Source of the DNA: Candidatus Poribacteria bacterium
GTDB taxonomy: Bacteria > Poribacteria > WGA-4E > WGA-3G
Length of the DNA stretch: 33,531 nt
Direction: 5' to 3'
Assembly: GCA_009839745.1 (NCBI GenBank)
Contig: VXPE01000064.1
Coordinates: 1-33,531 of the forward strand
Shown: positions 9,656 to 23,404 of the stretch, one piece after another
How positions within the stretch are numbered: the stretch's first letter is position 1
How the letters are laid out: every line of letters begins with the position of its first letter
Notes under the pieces: model-generated
What the model was told of the DNA's origin: nothing
Databases searched by the model: none
What the model saw: the letters and a program-made list of their open reading frames with translations, nothing else
Position numbers and translations under genes: made by a program

Positions 9656-10600
9656 CTACAAGCGAGACAAAACTGCTTGCGTCAAAAGCGGAATCATCAG
9701 CTCATGATGTCCTGTGAATGTATACCCTTTACCTCCCATCTCTGTTGGACGTTTGACGACATTCTCTACCGGACGGTATTGTTGATTCATGTCGAAATTG
9801 GCAGCGGTAAACTCGGACACGGTATGTCCTAAATTCCGAGCGATCGTCAATGCCTTCAGAAACACCTCAGGCAATATGACCGCCGACCCCAAATTCAGCA
9901 CAACGCCACCCCCTTCCAGATCCGTCACTAACGTCGTTAGGAGTCGGAAATCGGTGAAACTCGCTGCGCCGATAGCGGCACCGTTCGCAGACGGATGCTG
10001 ATGGATAATATCCGTGCCGATAGCGACATGCACCGTGATTGGAACATCGTATTGGATGCCGGCAGCAAGCAGGCTATATGCGTTATAGGGCGCGTCCCGC
10101 TCAACGAGTTGCCCACCGAGTGCTTCACCCATCCCGATCCCTGTATCTGCGGCGTGCTGCGTCGCTGTGTTCATCAAGCGTCCAGTTTCCTCCCACATCC
10201 CGAACCGCCCATCTTGGAGATAGGCGGCGACATCCTCTGAGGTCTCTCCGATAAGCGCTATCTCGAAATCGTGAATGCTACTTGCGCCGTTAAATGCGAA
10301 CCCAGTAACCACACCACGTTTTGCTAAGTCAATTAAGAATGGACTCAATCCGCATTTGATGACATGCCCGCCCATCATCACGAGGATCGGTTTCTTGTTC
10401 CGATGGGCAGCAACAATATCGTCAACGAGCGCCAAGAATTCCTGCCCCTTGAGGATGTTCGGCAGACTCGATAGAAATTGGGACAGGTCTATCTCTACTT
10501 CCGGTGGTGTCGCGAAATCACGGACAGAGACCTTGTTGATACGGTTCTGCAGCGGATAGGTCGTTACAGATGATATATTAATCGGGTTCCGAGGTTTCAT
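9656..10600 (-). CDS. Conserved protein of unknown function, possibly deoxyhypusine-synthase-like
   Basis: This 314-residue protein has well-conserved-looking glycine-rich loops: VMMGGHVIKCGLSPFLIDL (about 74-92), GFAFNGASSIHDFEIALIG, and VAIGTDIIHQHPSANGAA. These would suit a Rossmann-like nucleotide-binding fold. The overall pattern, ending with GKGYTFTGHHELMIPLL, reminds me of bacterial proteins with a deoxyhypusine-synthase-like fold, but the classical active-site lysine region is not convincing. I give no reaction. No membrane segment or signal peptide is seen. The ATG at 10600 overlaps the end of the upstream O-antigen-ligase-type gene by 23 nt, so the two are probably translationally coupled. 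Confidence 0.5.
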   Translation of the reverse strand: MKPRNPINISSVTTYPLQNRINKVSVRDFATPPEVEIDLSQFLSSLPNILKGQEFLALVDDIVAAHRNKKPILVMMGGHVIKCGLSPFLIDLAKRGVVTGFAFNGASSIHDFEIALIGETSEDVAAYLQDGRFGMWEETGRLMNTATQHAADTGIGMGEALGGQLVERDAPYNAYSLLAAGIQYDVPITVHVAIGTDIIHQHPSANGAAIGAASFTDFRLLTTLVTDLEGGGVVLNLGSAVILPEVFLKALTIARNLGHTVSEFTAANFDMNQQYRPVENVVKRPTEMGGKGYTFTGHHELMIPLLTQAVLSRL

Positions 10601-13697: not shown

Positions 13698-14897
13698 TTA
13701 CAAAAACTTCACGACGACCAACGTAATGTCATCATTGGCACTTTCGTCCTGTTGATGTGCCTGCAGGTCGGACAGAATCTCTGTCTTTATCTCTTCAGGG
13801 GACAGATGTCGTTTTTGCGAAATGAGTTCTGTGAACCTGTCGAATCCATACATTTCGGCGTTAGGATTGAATGCTTCTGTGATCCCATCTGAATAAAGGA
13901 CCAACAGATCCCCCGGATACCACTCTACTTCAGAACTGTAGTATTGCGTCGGGGTGTCGGACATTGAAATACCGACCGGGAGAAAAGAGGATTCTAACTC
14001 AATGAGATCCGTATCGTCACGCTTGATGCCGTTCTGTTCAGCACGATAGAGGAGCATCTGCGGGTGCCCGGCATTGGCGAACTCCAACCGATTATCGGGG
14101 TGAATGATAAGATAACAGCAGGTCATGTAGATAAAAGCCTGGGCATCTTCTTCTGTGACACGGGTAATGGCTTTCATGACTTCCGGCACAGAAGCATCGA
14201 AACGGAGCTGTGTTTGCAAGCAGCTTTTTGTCATTGCAGCAACCATCGCCGAATGATAGCCGTGCCCCATGACATCACCGAGAAAAATGGCGACGCTATT
14301 GTCCCGGAGTTCCATATAGTCGTAATAATCACCGCCGACGCTATTCGCGGGTCGGCAATATCCGGAGGAACTGACGTGGCGTTGCGCTATTTCTTTATTT
14401 GGGAGGAGAGATTTTTGAACTTCAGCGGCAAGCCGCATTGATTCTTCCTGCGCCACCTCCTTACGGATAGCACTCATCTGGATCTCAAGGTCGCGTCGGA
14501 TTTTCTCATTCAAGACCCGGAACATCCCACTCCCAATTCGCGGTTCTCGTGCCATAGCGTTGTAAAAATCGCTTCTCGTGATCCGCAGAAATTGTGTGGG
14601 TTTTACTGTTTTAACTGTAGCACTCCGCGGTTTATTGTCAATCAGGGCGATTTCTCCGAGGCAGTACCCCTTTTCATTGAAGAACAAGACTTCTGTTCCT
14701 GCCTTGATGATACTGACTTCACCCTCCACCAATAAGTAAAGCGAATCGCCTTCATCTCCCTCCTCAAAGAGCGTTGAATAGGCTGGATACGCGACTTCGT
14801 TGGCAATATGACAGATCGCTTTTAATTCGGTTTGTGGGAGTTCTGCAAAAAGTTCCGTCTTTTGTAAAAACTGTAACTTCTCTGCTTCTGGTAGCAT
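13698..14897 (-). CDS. Cyclic-nucleotide-binding domain fused to a PP2C (SpoIIE/RsbU-type) phosphatase
   Basis: The protein has 399 residues. An N-terminal cNMP-binding domain (about 12-130) has the phosphate-binding cassette GEIALIDNKPRSATV, with G81, E82 and R91 all in place. A helical linker (130-165) leads to a PPM/SpoIIE phosphatase domain. Metal-binding aspartates are present: D190 in GGDYYDY, D208 in LGDVMGHG, D337 in SDGITEA, and D389-D390 in NDDITLV. Relatives dephosphorylate STAS antagonists, so cyclic nucleotide may control partner switching here. A STAS protein is encoded at 402-755 and a CYTH protein at 8779-9324; the connection is inference. No clear ribosome site precedes the ATG at 14897. 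Confidence 0.9.
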   Translation of the reverse strand: MLPEAEKLQFLQKTELFAELPQTELKAICHIANEVAYPAYSTLFEEGDEGDSLYLLVEGEVSIIKAGTEVLFFNEKGYCLGEIALIDNKPRSATVKTVKPTQFLRITRSDFYNAMAREPRIGSGMFRVLNEKIRRDLEIQMSAIRKEVAQEESMRLAAEVQKSLLPNKEIAQRHVSSSGYCRPANSVGGDYYDYMELRDNSVAIFLGDVMGHGYHSAMVAAMTKSCLQTQLRFDASVPEVMKAITRVTEEDAQAFIYMTCCYLIIHPDNRLEFANAGHPQMLLYRAEQNGIKRDDTDLIELESSFLPVGISMSDTPTQYYSSEVEWYPGDLLVLYSDGITEAFNPNAEMYGFDRFTELISQKRHLSPEEIKTEILSDLQAHQQDESANDDITLVVVKFL

Positions 14898-15295: not shown

Positions 15296-18200
15296 ATGTC
15301 AATCACTGATTTTTTTCGGGGAAAAGTTCTGCTTATTACTGGTGGCACCGCATTTTTGGGGCAACCGATGGTCGCAAAAATTTTAACTGCCCTTCCCGAT
15401 ATTCAAAAGATTTATCTTCTCATTCGAAGTCGCACGGATACAACTGGAAAACACACTTCCGCTCAAGAACGTTTAGAAAATGAGCTTCTCACTTCCGACG
15501 TTTTTGCTTCCCTTCGTCGGCTACACGGCGACAATTTTGATGCATGGGCGCAGCAGAAATTGACAGCTGTTGAGGGTGATCTCACGCACGAGCGTCTTGG
15601 ATTCAGCGATGCGGAATACCAAAGACTCCAGAACGAAGTCCAGGTTTTTATCAATATCGCGGGCCTTGTAGATTTTGATCCACCTTTCGATGATTCTTTG
15701 TGGGGGAATGCCCTCGCTGCCAAACATGTCGTCAACTTTGCCAAGGGTTGCCCGGATGCTGTGTTTCTCCACATCTCAACAGCCTACGTTTGCGGCGACA
15801 AACCGGGACGCGTGCCTGAAGAACTTCCATTGGCATACGCACACTACGCAAGACAACACCGCGAAAAAACTGGCATGCCTATCCCTGAAACGCTCTCCGA
15901 GGAGATCGAAGGGTTGCTTTCCCTGAGTGCTGCTATCCGTGCTGAAGCCGAATCGCCTGAAACTCTCGTTAACCTTCAGCAAGAAGCGGAGGCACAAATA
16001 AAAGGAACGCGTAAGGGACTTGCGGCACAGATCGAGGAGTTGAAGGCAGAATGGCTTGAGGAACGCTTGGTTGAGGAAGGGTTGAAGCACGCTCGTTCGC
16101 GCGGATGGAACGATACTTACACCTATATGAAATTCCTCGCTGAGCAGATGGTTATGGAATTGCGCGGCGAACTGCCCACTGCTATCGTGCGTCCCTCAAT
16201 TATTGAGAGTAGTTTTGATGAGCCTGAACCCGGATGGCTCGGCGGATTTCGGATGTGCGAACCTCTGATCGTGGGTTTTGGGAAAGGACGACTCCCGGAT
16301 TTCCCGGCAGATCCAGACATAATCCTCGATATTATCCCTGTCGATTTTGTAGTGAATGCTATCTTGGCAGCTGCTGAGGCGACTGCAAAGCGCCGCGGTC
16401 TTGAAGTGTATCATGTCGCGACAGGGACGCAGAATCCGCTCTATTTTCGAGGTATCTTTGAAGCAACCTACGAATATTTTATGAAATATCCAATGGTAGA
16501 GGACGGAAAACCGGTTGCGGTCCCAATTTGGAAATATCCGAGCTTAGCGGAATTTCAGCGAAAATTGGATAGTCGTATGCGTCTGGTCGATCTTGCCGTT
16601 CAGACCCTTGGCAAACTTCCGATACGTGCGGCTAAGCGGAAACGCCGTCACCTTGTCCTGAAGCAGAGCGGTATCAAAGCACTCCTGCATTACATCAGAA
16701 TCTATGCCCCTTACACGCGGACTAACTTTGAATTTGAGACCGAGAAAACCCAAGGGCTTTACGAGGCGCTTTCACCGACAGAACAGCAGCGTTTTAACTT
16801 CGATGTTTCAAGGATCCATTGGAAGCGATATTTCCAAGAGATCCATATCCCTGGCATAAAGAGACATGTGTTGAAGATTGAAAATAACACAGCGAACGAT
16901 ACAGAAGCATCTTCCTCTGCCAAACAGGAGAAAGCGAATTCGCAAGACGAGTCCGAGGAGTCCGCGACTGCCCTCAAACGGATTGCCCCCAAAACGATCG
17001 TAGACCTGATTAAAATGCAAGCCGCGCGAATCCCAGATAGAATCGCGCTGCAGATGGCAAACGAAAGCGGATGGGAAGTGTATACATACGCGGAGACGTA
17101 TACCTTGTCGCGCCAAGTCGCGTGGCAGCTCTGGAAAAGCGGTTTGCGAAAAGACGATCGCGTGATATTAGTTTCTGAAAACCAGCCCGAATGGTGTATC
17201 GCTTACCTTGCAGCTATCCAAATAGGTATCGCTGTTGTTCCGCTTGACGCGCAAACACCCGCCCATGAAATTTTGGCAATCGCCAAGTTCACTACTGCGA
17301 AATCGATTTTAGCCTCCGAAAGCGTATTAGAAAAATCGGATGCGGAAATCCTATCAACGCCAGAGACGATGTTACAAAACATCAATAAGAACTGTGAAAT
17401 TGTGGGAGTTTCCGATGCCAGGGTGCACGAAGCCCCAACCACCGAGATTCCTGCCGATTTTCCGAATGTAGACGTCTCTCCAGACACCGTTGCTTCGATT
17501 ATCTTTACAATGGGAACTACTGTTGAAGCGAAAGGTGCGATGCTCACGCACGGCGGCTTTATTTCCAATGTCCAAGCAGTGGCAAAAGCCCTCCCACCGA
17601 CAGACACCGAGCGGATCCTGTCAGCACTTCCATTGTATCATGCCTTGAGTTTCTCCTGTAGTTTACTGATGGCACTTTACAGCGGCACGACGGCGACTTA
17701 CGTCAATGCCCTTCGTCCTACAACACTTCTGAAGACAATGCGTGAGGCAAAGACGACGGCTTTTATTGGCGTTCCACGCCTTTTTCAGATGCTTCAAAGC
17801 ACAATTGAACGACAAGCATCGCGAGCAGATACACCGGGTGAGACATTGGCAAAAAAAGCACAAGCGGTCATGGGGGGTGAAATACGCGTCCTCGTTAGTG
17901 GTGGTGCCTCGCTTTCCGATGCGATCTACGACGGATTTCAAAAATTCGGTATGACCCTTTACCAAGGCTACGGAATGACTGAAACAGCACCCGTTCTCAG
18001 TGTCAATCCATATCTAAAAAGTAAGCGGGGTTCGGTAGGACCAGCGGTAGAAGGCGTGGAACTTCAAATCAAGAATCCGGGCAGTGATGGTATCGGGGAG
18101 ATCATCGCTAAGGGACCGAGTACGATGAAGGGCTACTATCAGAACGCGGATGCTACAGAAAAGGCTATTCGCAACGGATGGCTCTACACAGGCGATTTGG

Positions 18201-19591
18201 GCTACATGGACGCGGATGGCTACCTCTATCTCACTGGACATTGCAAGGACATTATCGTTCCCGCATCTGGAAAGAATGTCTATCCCGTTGAATTGGAGGC
18301 ACTCTATCGAGACAGTTCGGAAACCATTTCTGAAATGTGTGTCCTCGGCATTCCGCATGAAGACGGGTCGGATATGGGTATACATGCCGTGATTGTGCCG
18401 ACAACTCCCGACGAGGAAACGCAAACGGAAATTCAGCACTACCTTCAGGCGCGAGCAAAGCAGCTACCGAGTTACCAACAATTCCACAAATCTCACTTCT
18501 GGAACGATCCCCTACCAAAGACTGCGGATGGGGAGATAGATCGACAACGTCTAAGGTGTAGCTTGGAGGCGCATATTAAAAGTATGGCAGACCTTCAGGA
18601 GAATCCCAGCGCGGATGTAGATAGTGCTGCACCCAGATCGGACATACCAGAAGAAATCCTCTCTACCCTCGCACGATTGGCACGCATGCCGGCACACCAA
18701 ATTCAGCGGGAGAGCCGTTTAGATACCGACTTAGGGCTTGATTCACTCACGCGCCTCGATCTTCTACTGGTCCTTGAATCCAGACTGGGTGAAACAATTC
18801 CTGATGCGTTACTCGCCAATTTAGAGACGGTCGGTGATGTTGTCACATTAATCGAGACGTTTCCCACGGACATCGCAAGAGAGAAAGAGAAGCCTCGCGA
18901 GGTCGGAAAGCCTGAGTTCAGGCAGGTGCCTCGGTGGTATGCCCGTGCGTTTCGCACCGTGATTACCGGCATCTATCGGAACTATTTTTCATTGAAATGC
19001 TACGGGCTTGAGCATATTCCACAGGATAAACCCTATATTATTATGCCGAATCACACAAGTCACCTTGATACTTTAACGGTGATTACTGCGCTCGGAACGA
19101 AGGCGTACCGACTCTGGACGCTCGCTGCCCGAGATTACTGGTTCGCGACCCGTTTTCAAGGTTGGTTTGCTGGGACGTGCCTTAACGCGCTGCCGATAGA
19201 ACGGGAGGGGAATTTTACTGAGTTTCTACAGGATCTCAGGGCAGCGAACGAGGTGATGTCAGAAAATAACGGCTTGCTCATCTTTCCTGAAGGGACACGT
19301 TCCCTTGATGGTAAACTTCAACCTTTCAAACCGGGTGTGCTTAGTTTGCTCATCTATACGCCTAACGTCCCGGTTATACCGGCTTATATTGACGGAACCT
19401 ACCACGCGTTACCGAAGGGACAGAACTTACCTAAGAAACATCCTGTGCGTATCGTTTTTGGTGAACCGTTTACCTTCCCGCCGGAGGATTGGGGACCGCA
19501 GGACAAAACGCCGATCAATCCCGACAGATACCAGGAATTTTTGGAATTGGCACAAAATCGAGTTGCTAAACTTGGAGCCATGCTGAGATAA
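15296..19591 (+). CDS. Multidomain acyl-reductase / acyl-ligase / ACP / PlsC acyltransferase, ElbD-like
   Basis: The protein has 1431 residues and four enzymatic parts. (1) Residues 1-370 form a fatty-acyl-CoA-reductase-type NAD(P) domain: TGGTAFLG at 15-22, where the usual middle glycine is A19; Y275-x3-K279; and a charged helical insert at 195-260. (2) Residues 567-1090 form an AMP-forming acyl ligase with YGMTETAP and GWLYTGD, but a changed P-loop (TMGTTVEAKG) and E1080 where the A10 lysine normally sits. (3) An acyl carrier domain has LGLDSL with S1150 for phosphopantetheine. (4) PlsC spans about 1215-1431, with H1253-x4-D1258 and FPEGTRS (1330-1336). This order matches my memory of the myxobacterial ether-lipid enzyme ElbD. 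The likely outcome is reduction of carrier-bound acyl groups and esterification of a glycerol lipid. Downstream HAD phosphatase supports lipid work. Confidence 0.85.
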   Translation: MSITDFFRGKVLLITGGTAFLGQPMVAKILTALPDIQKIYLLIRSRTDTTGKHTSAQERLENELLTSDVFASLRRLHGDNFDAWAQQKLTAVEGDLTHERLGFSDAEYQRLQNEVQVFINIAGLVDFDPPFDDSLWGNALAAKHVVNFAKGCPDAVFLHISTAYVCGDKPGRVPEELPLAYAHYARQHREKTGMPIPETLSEEIEGLLSLSAAIRAEAESPETLVNLQQEAEAQIKGTRKGLAAQIEELKAEWLEERLVEEGLKHARSRGWNDTYTYMKFLAEQMVMELRGELPTAIVRPSIIESSFDEPEPGWLGGFRMCEPLIVGFGKGRLPDFPADPDIILDIIPVDFVVNAILAAAEATAKRRGLEVYHVATGTQNPLYFRGIFEATYEYFMKYPMVEDGKPVAVPIWKYPSLAEFQRKLDSRMRLVDLAVQTLGKLPIRAAKRKRRHLVLKQSGIKALLHYIRIYAPYTRTNFEFETEKTQGLYEALSPTEQQRFNFDVSRIHWKRYFQEIHIPGIKRHVLKIENNTANDTEASSSAKQEKANSQDESEESATALKRIAPKTIVDLIKMQAARIPDRIALQMANESGWEVYTYAETYTLSRQVAWQLWKSGLRKDDRVILVSENQPEWCIAYLAAIQIGIAVVPLDAQTPAHEILAIAKFTTAKSILASESVLEKSDAEILSTPETMLQNINKNCEIVGVSDARVHEAPTTEIPADFPNVDVSPDTVASIIFTMGTTVEAKGAMLTHGGFISNVQAVAKALPPTDTERILSALPLYHALSFSCSLLMALYSGTTATYVNALRPTTLLKTMREAKTTAFIGVPRLFQMLQSTIERQASRADTPGETLAKKAQAVMGGEIRVLVSGGASLSDAIYDGFQKFGMTLYQGYGMTETAPVLSVNPYLKSKRGSVGPAVEGVELQIKNPGSDGIGEIIAKGPSTMKGYYQNADATEKAIRNGWLYTGDLGYMDADGYLYLTGHCKDIIVPASGKNVYPVELEALYRDSSETISEMCVLGIPHEDGSDMGIHAVIVPTTPDEETQTEIQHYLQARAKQLPSYQQFHKSHFWNDPLPKTADGEIDRQRLRCSLEAHIKSMADLQENPSADVDSAAPRSDIPEEILSTLARLARMPAHQIQRESRLDTDLGLDSLTRLDLLLVLESRLGETIPDALLANLETVGDVVTLIETFPTDIAREKEKPREVGKPEFRQVPRWYARAFRTVITGIYRNYFSLKCYGLEHIPQDKPYIIMPNHTSHLDTLTVITALGTKAYRLWTLAARDYWFATRFQGWFAGTCLNALPIEREGNFTEFLQDLRAANEVMSENNGLLIFPEGTRSLDGKLQPFKPGVLSLLIYTPNVPVIPAYIDGTYHALPKGQNLPKKHPVRIVFGEPFTFPPEDWGPQDKTPINPDRYQEFLELAQNRVAKLGAMLR

Positions 19592-19615
19592 CAGGAAGGT
19601 TCTTAGGACGTTACT

Positions 19616-20302
19616 ATGTCAGATCCGAACCCGAAACTTTTAAAAACAGTGGCATTTTTTGATGTGGATGGCACTTTGTTGAAGTCCACGATTGTCCATT
19701 ACTATATCTGGATGCGGTTCAAAGAAACGCCATTCCTTTTAAAGTATCTGTGGCTCGTTGGATTTCTACCCAAAATTGTCTACTACTTAATTTTGGATAG
19801 GATCAGTCGTCCCCGCTTCAATGAGACATTTTATCGTAACTATCGCGGGATGAATGTCGACGAGATCAAGGAATTGTCTATCGAAATGTTCGAGGCTTAC
19901 CTGCGTCCGAAGATCTTCCCTGCCGCGATAGCCCAAATTCAGGAACACAAGGAGCAAGGCACTCCCGTCGTTTTCGTAACGGGTTCGCTTGATTTCATTG
20001 TCCAGCCGATAGCGGACTTCCTCAATGTTGATTCTGTATTGGCACCACAACTTCACGAACAGAACGAACAGTTCACGGGTGAATTGACAACCGTGCCCCT
20101 CATTGGGGAAGAGAAAGCAAAGGCAATGCAAGCCTACTCTGAACGACACGGCATTTCATTGAAAGACAGCTACGCTTACGGCGACAGTCAATCCGATCTG
20201 CCTATGTTGGAATGTGTTGGGAATCCGGTCGTTGTGAATCCGGGAAAAGCACTCCGTGAGAAAGCACTCGCATCTGGTTGGGAAATGCATGAATGGTTAT
20301 AA
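19616..20302 (+). CDS. HAD-superfamily phosphatase, subfamily IB (SerB/CicA-like)
   Basis: The protein has 228 residues. Motif I is FFDVDGT with nucleophile D16 and D18, motif II is the VTGS stretch near 117-120, motif III is the GEEKAKAM lysine region, and motif IV is GDSQSDLPML. A hydrophobic helical cap (about 30-60, WMRFKETPFLLKYLWLVGF) suggests membrane contact and lipid substrates. Subfamily IB members often sit next to, or are fused to, PlsC acyltransferases and dephosphorylate phospholipid precursors. It follows the ElbD-like gene after 24 nt with AGGA 7 nt before the ATG, so the two are one operon. Confidence 0.85.
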   Translation: MSDPNPKLLKTVAFFDVDGTLLKSTIVHYYIWMRFKETPFLLKYLWLVGFLPKIVYYLILDRISRPRFNETFYRNYRGMNVDEIKELSIEMFEAYLRPKIFPAAIAQIQEHKEQGTPVVFVTGSLDFIVQPIADFLNVDSVLAPQLHEQNEQFTGELTTVPLIGEEKAKAMQAYSERHGISLKDSYAYGDSQSDLPMLECVGNPVVVNPGKALREKALASGWEMHEWL

Positions 20303-20325: not shown

Positions 20326-20538
20326 ATGAACATTAGACGTTATTTTGAGTCCCTGTCTGAACCAAACGACACGATGTTTGTTGAAATTGGGGATAGGCAC
20401 CGGTTTACCCGTCGCGGTGACGATTGGGTTAAATTCCGTGAGGATCTGATTGAGCTCTTGGAGCAGACAATTTCTGAGGAGTTATCCAAAGAATTCGCCG
20501 AAGCGACAGAGGAATGGGTTTCGGAACCCAATGCATAA
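20326..20538 (+). CDS. Small acidic protein of unknown function, 70 residues
   Basis: The ATG at 20326 has the best ribosome site in this region, AAGGAGAG (20313-20320). The product begins MNIRRYFESLSEP, has FVEIGDRHRFTRRGDDWVKFREDL in the middle, and ends with an acidic helix. No family is recognised. It follows the phosphatase gene by 23 nt and probably belongs to the same transcript. Confidence 0.65.
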   Translation: MNIRRYFESLSEPNDTMFVEIGDRHRFTRRGDDWVKFREDLIELLEQTISEELSKEFAEATEEWVSEPNA

Positions 20539-20633: not shown

Positions 20634-21581
20634 ATGTCAGACACAATCACCGATGCGCAAGCGTTGGAAAGCGAAGGTAAGCTTGCCGAAGCCATCCAAG
20701 CCTACGATAGCATCCTCAACACAACAGATGATACGTCAACGCTCGCACTCGCTAATTTTCGACTCGGAACAATTTATCGGACGTGGAGAGAACTCTTCAC
20801 GGCGCAACGGTTTTTAGCGAAAGCACATCAACTCGCGCCAAGCGACACTGAGATTCGCGATGCGATTGAGGAACTCAACCAGCATTTTTCAGAGAATCGG
20901 GAGGTGATCGCTGAGGAGATGTCCCGTAAAAATAGCGATCAGATTGTATCGCTCTTCCGTATTGCGACGGGGATTAAGCTCATCACGATGGACAAAGCGG
21001 TTCAGGCGTATCCGTTACTGAAGAGCCGCACCAAGATATTTCCGAACGCTGCTGTCGCAAAGCATCTCCTCACCGATATCCAAATCACAGAGGAGGAGCG
21101 GAACTCAGCGATTGATTTCCTTTTGGAGAGAGATTGGCTCGTCAGCACTGGCGTCTCACTTTACACAATAGCAGAGAGCGGACTCTTTGTTTTTTATACG
21201 GAGCTTGCGCAGCTGCACGTCGCCAATGCAGCTTACCCGGAAGCGGGGACGTGTTATGAGCAGGCGTATTGGTTAAATCCGTCACAAGACCATCTACGCT
21301 ACCAACAGGTTATCTGTTACGCCGAAGCAGAGGCATGGGACGCGGCAGTTGGGATGCTTGCACAACTTCCGACCGAAGTTCCTCAAGGCATAGACCTCGT
21401 GGCGTACCATTCCGCTGTCGCACAAAGTTACCACCACGCCTATCAGGCTACCCAAGATGAGAATATTAAACAGAAAGTGATCGAAGCGTGCGAGACGGTA
21501 TTGCGTTTGGACAAAAAGGCGAGGGAGATTTCAAAACTGCTTGCGAGGTATCAAGATAAAAAGAGGTGGTGGCGTAGGTAG
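20634..21581 (+). CDS. TPR-repeat protein
   Basis: The protein has 315 residues. TPR-like helical pairs are visible at about 5-75 (AQALESEGKLAEAIQAYDSIL; ALANFRLGTIYRTWRELFTAQRFLAKAHQLAPSD split across two repeats) and again at 190-290 (ELAQLHVANAAYPEAGTCYEQAYWLNPS). There is no signal peptide or membrane segment, and the end is basic (KKRWWRR). It probably mediates protein contacts. It follows the small acidic gene by 95 nt; AAGGAA is 10 nt before the start. Whether it belongs with the lipid genes is unclear. Confidence 0.75.
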   Translation: MSDTITDAQALESEGKLAEAIQAYDSILNTTDDTSTLALANFRLGTIYRTWRELFTAQRFLAKAHQLAPSDTEIRDAIEELNQHFSENREVIAEEMSRKNSDQIVSLFRIATGIKLITMDKAVQAYPLLKSRTKIFPNAAVAKHLLTDIQITEEERNSAIDFLLERDWLVSTGVSLYTIAESGLFVFYTELAQLHVANAAYPEAGTCYEQAYWLNPSQDHLRYQQVICYAEAEAWDAAVGMLAQLPTEVPQGIDLVAYHSAVAQSYHHAYQATQDENIKQKVIEACETVLRLDKKAREISKLLARYQDKKRWWRR

Positions 21582-22662: not shown

Positions 22663-23404
22663 TCACATCAAAAATGATGCCGCAGTTTCTGTCCGGTTTC
22701 CGTCAAACCGTGCTAACACTTGACAGACGAACATTTCTGTCGCCACTTTAAGTGTCACGCCGAGTGGAATGTCAAGGCTCTGACCATTTTCAGAGAGATA
22801 CGGTCTTTCAGGGATATCCACAAGACGGTTTTGATACGTCCGAAGTTTTTCGGGTAGATGTTCCAGTAAAAGCGTCTGCCCATCAATGAGGTAAGCGGCA
22901 CGTTCAATCACATTTTCCAACTCCCGCACATTTCCGGGCCACGGATAGCTTTTGAGGAGAACCCATGCACTTGGAGCAATTTGTGGAACTTCCGATTCAT
23001 AGGACCCGCGATGTTTTTTCAGAAAGTGTGCTACTAACGGTTCAATATCCGCCTGTCGTCCTGCCAGCGGCGGCAGGGAAATAGAGGCAACCTCCAACCG
23101 ATAGTAGATATCCTCACGAAAGAATCCATCTCTAACGGCTTGCAGGATATCTCTATTGGTAGCGGTTAAAATTCGGACATCCACTGGAATGGATTTTTCG
23201 CCACCGATGCGTTCAATCTCCTTTGCCTCAATCGCATGTAACAACTTCGGTTGCAGTGAAAGCGGCATCTCCGAGATTTCATCAAGGAACAGCGTTCCGT
23301 TATGCGCCCTTTCAAACTTACCGAATTTGTTGTAGAACTTCAAACATCTGTGGACTGTCGCCGATGATTTCACCGTAATCGCCACGTAATGTATTTCTTG
23401 CCAT
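22663..23404 (-). pseudogene. Sigma-54-dependent activator remnant with internal deletion
   Basis: From an ATG at 23404 with AAGGAGG upstream, one frame gives MARNTLRGDYGEIIGDSP, then QMFEVLQQIR and a stop: the normal start of a sigma-54 AAA+ domain. A second frame resumes with GKFERAHNGTLFLDEISEMP (Walker B), then the sensor region and GNVRELENVIERA. About 65-70 codons are missing at a junction near 23315-23325. These include Walker A and the GAFTGA loop that touches sigma-54, and the frame is shifted. The 3' end stops in the Fis-type helix-turn-helix (NRTETAASFLM), so DNA binding is cut too. It cannot act as an activator. Nothing is seen in 22547-22662. Confidence 0.85.

Follow-up and report, generated by a model that had tools for sequence, protein, structure and literature searches.

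A poribacterial relative of the myxobacterial ElbD megasynthase and its ElbB-like phosphatase: a probable ether-lipid locus

The closest described system is the elb operon of Myxococcus xanthus (Lorenzen et al. 2014, reviewed in PMC9131029). M. xanthus elbD mutants lose their ether lipids, while a mutant in alkyl-DHAP synthase (AGPS) is little affected; AGPS plays a minor part there (PMC9131029). The ligase activity of M. xanthus ElbD is confirmed in vitro, and its fatty-acyl-reductase (FAR) and acyltransferase activities were not demonstrable in vitro (PMC9131029). The animal-type ether-lipid pathway is covered in the same review. Homologues of elbD occur in many phyla (PMC11868695). Gene cluster families with an elbD homologue ('VEPE-like') are confined to the Acidobacteriota and Poribacteria of sponges, and a poribacterial homologue had already been noted by Lorenzen et al. 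2014, according to PMC9426513. Ether lipids are found in sponges, and their biosynthetic origin is undescribed (PMC9426513). As a kind of gene, poribacterial elbD homologues are thus already known from this literature.

The window, by which we mean the whole 33,531-nt stretch analysed here, is contig C64 of a 5.04-Mb genome from a Candidatus Poribacteria bacterium. About 82 residues of the window protein match Candidatus Poribacteria MAGs at up to 99% identity; the same search, anchored with M. xanthus protein S, also retrieved Myxococcus xanthus AM003. The locus comprises the following features.

15296–19591, + strand: ElbD homologue, 1431 aa, with FAR at aa 14–527, AMP-ligase at 574–1095, acyl carrier at 1120–1186 and PlsC at 1233–1365 (Pfam, alignment with M. 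xanthus ElbD, ligase-domain tree)
15335–16876, + strand: FAR-type reductase part, NAD_binding_4 plus Sterile domain, with GGTAFLG cofactor loop and YTYMK catalytic motif (Pfam, motifs, PDB sequence match)
17015–18580, + strand: AMP-forming ligase domain with diverged P-loop TMGTTVEAKG and Glu at the canonical A10 Lys position (Pfam, motifs)
18653–18853, + strand: acyl carrier domain with phosphopantetheine site LGLDSL (Pfam, motif)
18992–19390, + strand: PlsC acyltransferase domain with intact NHTSHLD and EGTR motifs (Pfam, motifs)
19616–20302, + strand: HAD-IB phosphatase, ElbB-like (TIGR01490; 35% identity to M. xanthus ElbB)
20326–20538, + strand: small conserved protein, 70 aa, without known family (homologue starts, AlphaFold2)
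20634–21581, + strand: TPR protein, 315 aa, encoded by the conserved final gene of the cluster (Pfam, gene-order comparison)

The ElbD homologue is a single unbroken open reading frame, and every domain in it exceeds the Pfam gathering score. The N-terminal part contains NAD_binding_4 (residues 14–356, E 5e-60) and the FAR-specific C-terminal Sterile domain (461–527, 1e-14). The ligase part contains AMP-binding (574–948, 2e-73) and AMP-binding_C_3, and the C-terminal part contains PP-binding (1120–1186, 1e-8) and Acyltransferase/PlsC (1233–1365, 9e-22). The best PDB sequence match of the N-terminal part is fatty acyl-CoA reductase 7eoz (E 4e-80), and the middle of the protein matches acyl-CoA ligases. 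A plain acyl-CoA ligase or an NRPS-type thioester reductase is ruled out by the Sterile domain, by a sub-threshold score for TIGR01746 (79.5 of 213 bits) and by the ligase-domain tree described below. The phosphatase belongs to the HAD-IB family of NCBIfam TIGR01490 (151 bits, cut-off 98). The gaps between the ElbD, HAD, small-protein and TPR genes are 24, 23 and 95 nt. The initial annotation had read four domains in one chain followed by a HAD-IB phosphatase; this arrangement is confirmed by Pfam, TIGR01490, conserved gene order and purifying selection, and the pattern is far beyond chance. For the small protein, 20326 is a more probable start than 20293, the one given by the ORF caller, because all homologues begin at the methionine at 20326. 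Its AlphaFold2 model has a pLDDT of 82, and a fold search with it gave no significant match. The small and TPR genes are order-specific, and their place in the operon is conserved throughout the order; to describe the two proteins as possibly accessory was fair. Promoter and terminator scans of the locus gave barely more than shuffled sequence.

Other genes of the window lie on the minus strand around the locus. The divergent upstream gene (13698–14897) encodes a cyclic-nucleotide-binding domain and a SpoIIE-type phosphatase. It adjoins ElbD in the loci of the genus that were read and in G049 (family f4), and it could be a regulator. A protein of the GSU2086 family, of unknown function (436 bits), is encoded at 9656–10600, and it is conserved in this neighbourhood within the genus. 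Positions 22663–23385 hold a fragment that resembles a sigma-54 activator. It has counterparts of similar sequence close to the elb loci of G058 (L046) and G042 (L051), and none was found when the loci of other members of the genus were compared.

The homology between the window protein and M. xanthus ElbD is colinear over the full length, with 34% identity over residues 2–1389 (E 5e-186). The remaining matches in the M. xanthus genome cover the ligase domain only, apart from one that covers the FAR domain only. M. xanthus ElbD has the same Pfam domain order of FAR, AMP-ligase, ACP and PlsC. The maximum-likelihood tree of ligase domains places M. xanthus ElbD in one clade (99/96) with every poribacterial homologue, with 14 paralogous ligases from both Poribacteria and Myxococcus as contrast; its Myxococcus ElbD sample consists of two near-identical sequences, and the program warns of long outgroup branches. 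The protein is therefore placed with ElbD and not with plain fatty-acid-activating enzymes; a placement among the latter would have spoken against the initial annotation. The neighbouring HAD protein aligns with M. xanthus ElbB at 35% identity (E 1e-44). Full-length homology, tree and ElbB-like neighbour all uphold the label 'ElbD-like', and at the level of sequence it is well supported that the gene is a genuine ElbD relative with an ElbD-like role in lipid synthesis. By Pfam, none of the genes of the window operon belongs to the ElbE epimerase family.

Poribacteria are uncultured, mostly sponge-derived bacteria. Of the 60 genomes in the search for relatives, 54 have an ElbD homologue. Every one of the 36 genus genomes, among them that of the window, carries it, as do 13 of 14 genomes from the rest of the order (46–55% identity) and five of six genomes of the class family f5; none was found in the four f6–f8 genomes or in G047. 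The order ElbD-HAD-small-TPR is kept across the order with about 50–65% identity, family f3 excepted, and flanking gene order is kept within the genus. Family f5 has two adjacent genes, FAR and ligase-ACP-PlsC, and keeps the FAR/ligase-HAD order. Separate FAR and ligase-ACP-PlsC reading frames are also seen in several species of the window genus, for example G005 and G020 (L057, L053), so the fusion is not strictly required. All domains of the window ElbD are under purifying selection inside the genus, with dN/dS of about 0.03–0.16 overall and 0.06–0.16 for the ligase domain. Plasmid records gave no match to the window ElbD protein at E 1e-60. An accessory cluster or recent acquisition is rejected on universal presence in the genus, conserved flanks and this plasmid result. 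Judged from gene distribution, the elb locus is ancestral and core in these bacteria.

A HAD homologue with at least 40% identity is present in most relatives with ElbD, and it adjoins ElbD in those loci outside f3 that were read. It is missing only in G047 and f6–f8, where no ElbD was found, and in the three f3 genomes that bear AGPS. These three have only a distant HAD (28–30%) instead of the ElbB-type HAD. True AGPS, 46–47% identical to the M. xanthus AGPS query, is found only in these f3 genomes (G037, G040 and G042), and the search of the phylum found it in 3 of 85 Poribacteria genomes, all f3. M. xanthus has both ElbB and AGPS. In G042 (L051:6874–13937), ElbD, AGPS and an SDR follow one another in tandem, at intergenic distances of 67 and −5 nt; the AGPS is 46% identical to that of M. 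xanthus and matches guinea-pig AGPS (4bby) with E 2e-147. The SDR follows AGPS directly in all three f3 genomes. The pair lies on other contigs than ElbD in G037 (L118) and G040 (L119), and the ElbD-AGPS-SDR adjacency is seen in G042 alone. This tandem looks like a complete ether-lipid operon of the animal-type scheme and is a candidate for one. From its gene position we infer that the f3 SDR, a member of a generic family, is the keto-reductase. The exchange of HAD for AGPS is confined to one clade and may be a single evolutionary event.

The initial annotation had suggested a look for other ether-lipid genes elsewhere in the genome. The window genome has no AGPS and no DUF2229 protein, which we take to be the PlsA/Ger-type protein. 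AGPS was found nowhere in the window genus. A hidden AGPS in the window genome is excluded, as its four FAD-oxidase_C proteins are all GlcD-, GlcE- or YdiJ-like. DUF2229 gave no match in 13 genus genomes, the window genome among them; four control genomes and f2 give matches. The CarF/PEDS1 desaturase of the plasmalogen pathway (PF10520) and the WS/DGAT acyltransferase of wax ester synthesis (PF03007) had no match either, and no positive control matched for the former and no control genome for the latter, so neither result counts as an absence. G036 of family f2 (L134:4932–9048; also G039:C66) has a second ElbB-type HAD just upstream of a gene whose 1179-aa product combines two BadF/BadG domains with DUF2229. 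This second HAD copy is apparently broken in G036. The 1179-aa protein is possibly PlsA/Ger-like, and the pairing hints at a link between ElbB-type HAD and ether lipids.

ElbC of M. xanthus (L107:7082–8692) matches NCBIfam NF052592 with 849 bits (cut-off 740). By this profile it is one of the nickel-pincer-nucleotide hydroxyacid isomerases LarAH14/15/16 (LarA-like); PMC9131029 calls it a protein of unknown function. Besides the M. xanthus gene, the ElbC loci considered are L050:13314–14918 and L132:99–1649. ElbC is absent next to the window ElbD, and the nearest homologue is unlinked (G000:C11), with 36% identity and 510 bits against the NF052592 cut-off of 740. Close homologues are linked to ElbD only in some f5 genomes and G038. 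The f5 orthologue, 46% identical to M. xanthus ElbC in G057, shares a contig with ElbD in G056, G057 and G058. In some cases it is beside a zinc-type alcohol dehydrogenase next to the elb locus. We know of no requirement for ElbC in ether-lipid formation.

We consider it likely that the window carries the poribacterial counterpart of the elb ether-lipid locus, working as follows. The ligase domain would activate a fatty acid and load it onto the acyl carrier domain. Reduction of one acyl chain by the FAR domain would give a fatty alcohol or aldehyde, and the PlsC domain would pass a second acyl chain to glycerol phosphate or DHAP as acceptor. Removal of phosphate from the alkyl/acyl product would fall to the HAD protein. 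In f3, AGPS would swap acyl for alkyl and the SDR would reduce the keto group, as in animal peroxisomes. Since the window genus has no AGPS, the ether bond there would be made by ElbD itself or by another partner, as in M. xanthus. An ether product is probable in the window organism, and an alkyl(-acyl) glycerolipid is the most likely product of the locus. A further and more tentative proposal, which we hold to be possible though doubtful, is that ElbD and the ElbB-type HAD form a self-sufficient glycerol-ether route without AGPS or PlsA/Ger, and that one poribacterial family swapped HAD for AGPS and SDR, the two being alternative finishes of the same pathway.

Two other products of the same chain are to be weighed. 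The protein might be an Aas-like acyl-ACP synthetase/acyltransferase with a fused reductase, serving ordinary phospholipid synthesis, acyl recycling or a signalling or secondary lipid that is neither ether nor wax, such as a reduced acyl head-group conjugate. AMP-ligase plus PlsC is indeed the make-up of acyl-ACP–phospholipid O-acyltransferase (the PRK08633 score is 204 bits, far under its cut-off of 1221), and Pontiella has elbD homologues while ether lipids were not detected in it (PMC11868695). However, the ElbD clade stands apart from all 14 paralogous ligases, and the FAR domain is under purifying selection and is kept as an adjacent gene in f5, which argues that the reductase is integral; we regard this function as rather unlikely. 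Alternatively, the PlsC domain might esterify the FAR-made fatty alcohol with ACP-bound acyl, to yield fatty alcohols or wax-like esters and not glycerol ethers. FAR, acyl-ACP and acyltransferase in one chain are chemically sufficient for this, and the lack of AGPS and PlsA/Ger in the genome would agree with it. On the other hand, the HAD phosphatase, which has no role in wax synthesis, co-occurs tightly with ElbD, the PlsC domain retains its glycerophosphate-acyltransferase motifs, f3 relatives carry AGPS, once adjoining ElbD, and no WS/DGAT family match was obtained, though none was obtained in the control genomes either. Wax-like esters are unlikely on this balance. The ether or wax-type lipids of the initial annotation fare differently: the ether part is plausible, in particular from the ElbD-AGPS-SDR locus of G042, though the window genome has neither AGPS nor PlsA/Ger, and the wax part has no positive support.

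The probable ether-lipid function also has to accommodate an unusual ligase domain. The FAR, carrier and PlsC motifs of the window ElbD are intact, and members of its genus carry Ala in place of the central glycine in the FAR cofactor loop (GGTAFLG). The A3 P-loop of the ligase domain reads TMGTTVEAKG against the canonical TSGTTGxPKG. Most poribacterial ElbD homologues have an altered P-loop, while f3, with AGPS, keeps TSGT. The A10 lysine is catalytic in the ANL family. Nearly all of the ElbD homologues read are without it. It is kept in a standard motif in 11 of the 14 paralogous ligases, the other three being without that motif, and in two f5 proteins. At this position the window protein has Glu, the genus has E, G, S, N or T, and M. 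xanthus ElbD has Ser. We read the absent lysine as an ElbD family trait and not as decay, because the M. xanthus ligase is active in vitro (PMC9131029) and the domain is under purifying selection. For the same two reasons it is very unlikely that the altered P-loop and A10 position mark a degenerate megasynthase that has lost adenylation by its ligase domain and takes its acyl chain from another enzyme; a degenerate enzyme as a whole is ruled out by dN/dS.

The available parts of PMC9131029, PMC9426513 and PMC11868695 hold no description of the core status in the genus, of the HAD/AGPS exchange with its ElbD-AGPS-SDR locus, of the missing A10 lysine or of the assignment of ElbC to LarA-like isomerases. 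A genus with universal ElbD and without AGPS or PlsA/Ger, next to a family with AGPS in place of HAD, is a natural experiment. It bears on how ElbD makes ethers without AGPS, a question that M. xanthus raises as well. The smallest gene sets can be named, ElbD-HAD-small-TPR and ElbD-AGPS-SDR, and the roles of HAD and AGPS are directly testable. The locus is also a genetic candidate for the ether lipids found in sponges (PMC9426513).

Among known systems, the anaerobic PlsA/Ger glycerol-ester reductase route shares the end-product class with the proposed pathway, but its DUF2229/BadF-type protein is absent in the window genus; f2 has one beside the second HAD. As for the animal-type pathway (FAR1, GNPAT, AGPS, PexRAP), the window protein is predicted to combine its FAR and acyltransferase activities in a single chain, and f3 adds AGPS and SDR; the window genome has no AGPS, and the window domains are fused with ligase and ACP. 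The elbD-homologue clusters of PMC9426513 share core gene architecture, phylum and habitat with the locus, and the window gene is probably of the same family; those clusters are treated as biosynthetic gene clusters, whereas here the gene is a core gene of its genus and a change of its partner among relatives, HAD versus AGPS, is described. The M. xanthus elb operon (MIBiG BGC0000871) differs in several respects. Identity is 34%, the window HAD lies downstream of ElbD while ElbB lies upstream, the window has no ElbC neighbour and has extra 70-aa and TPR genes, and M. xanthus has the AGPS that the window genome does not. Yet the two agree in the kind and order of the four domains and are homologous over their full length, and they share a ligase clade and a HAD-IB phosphatase (ElbB) in the operon.
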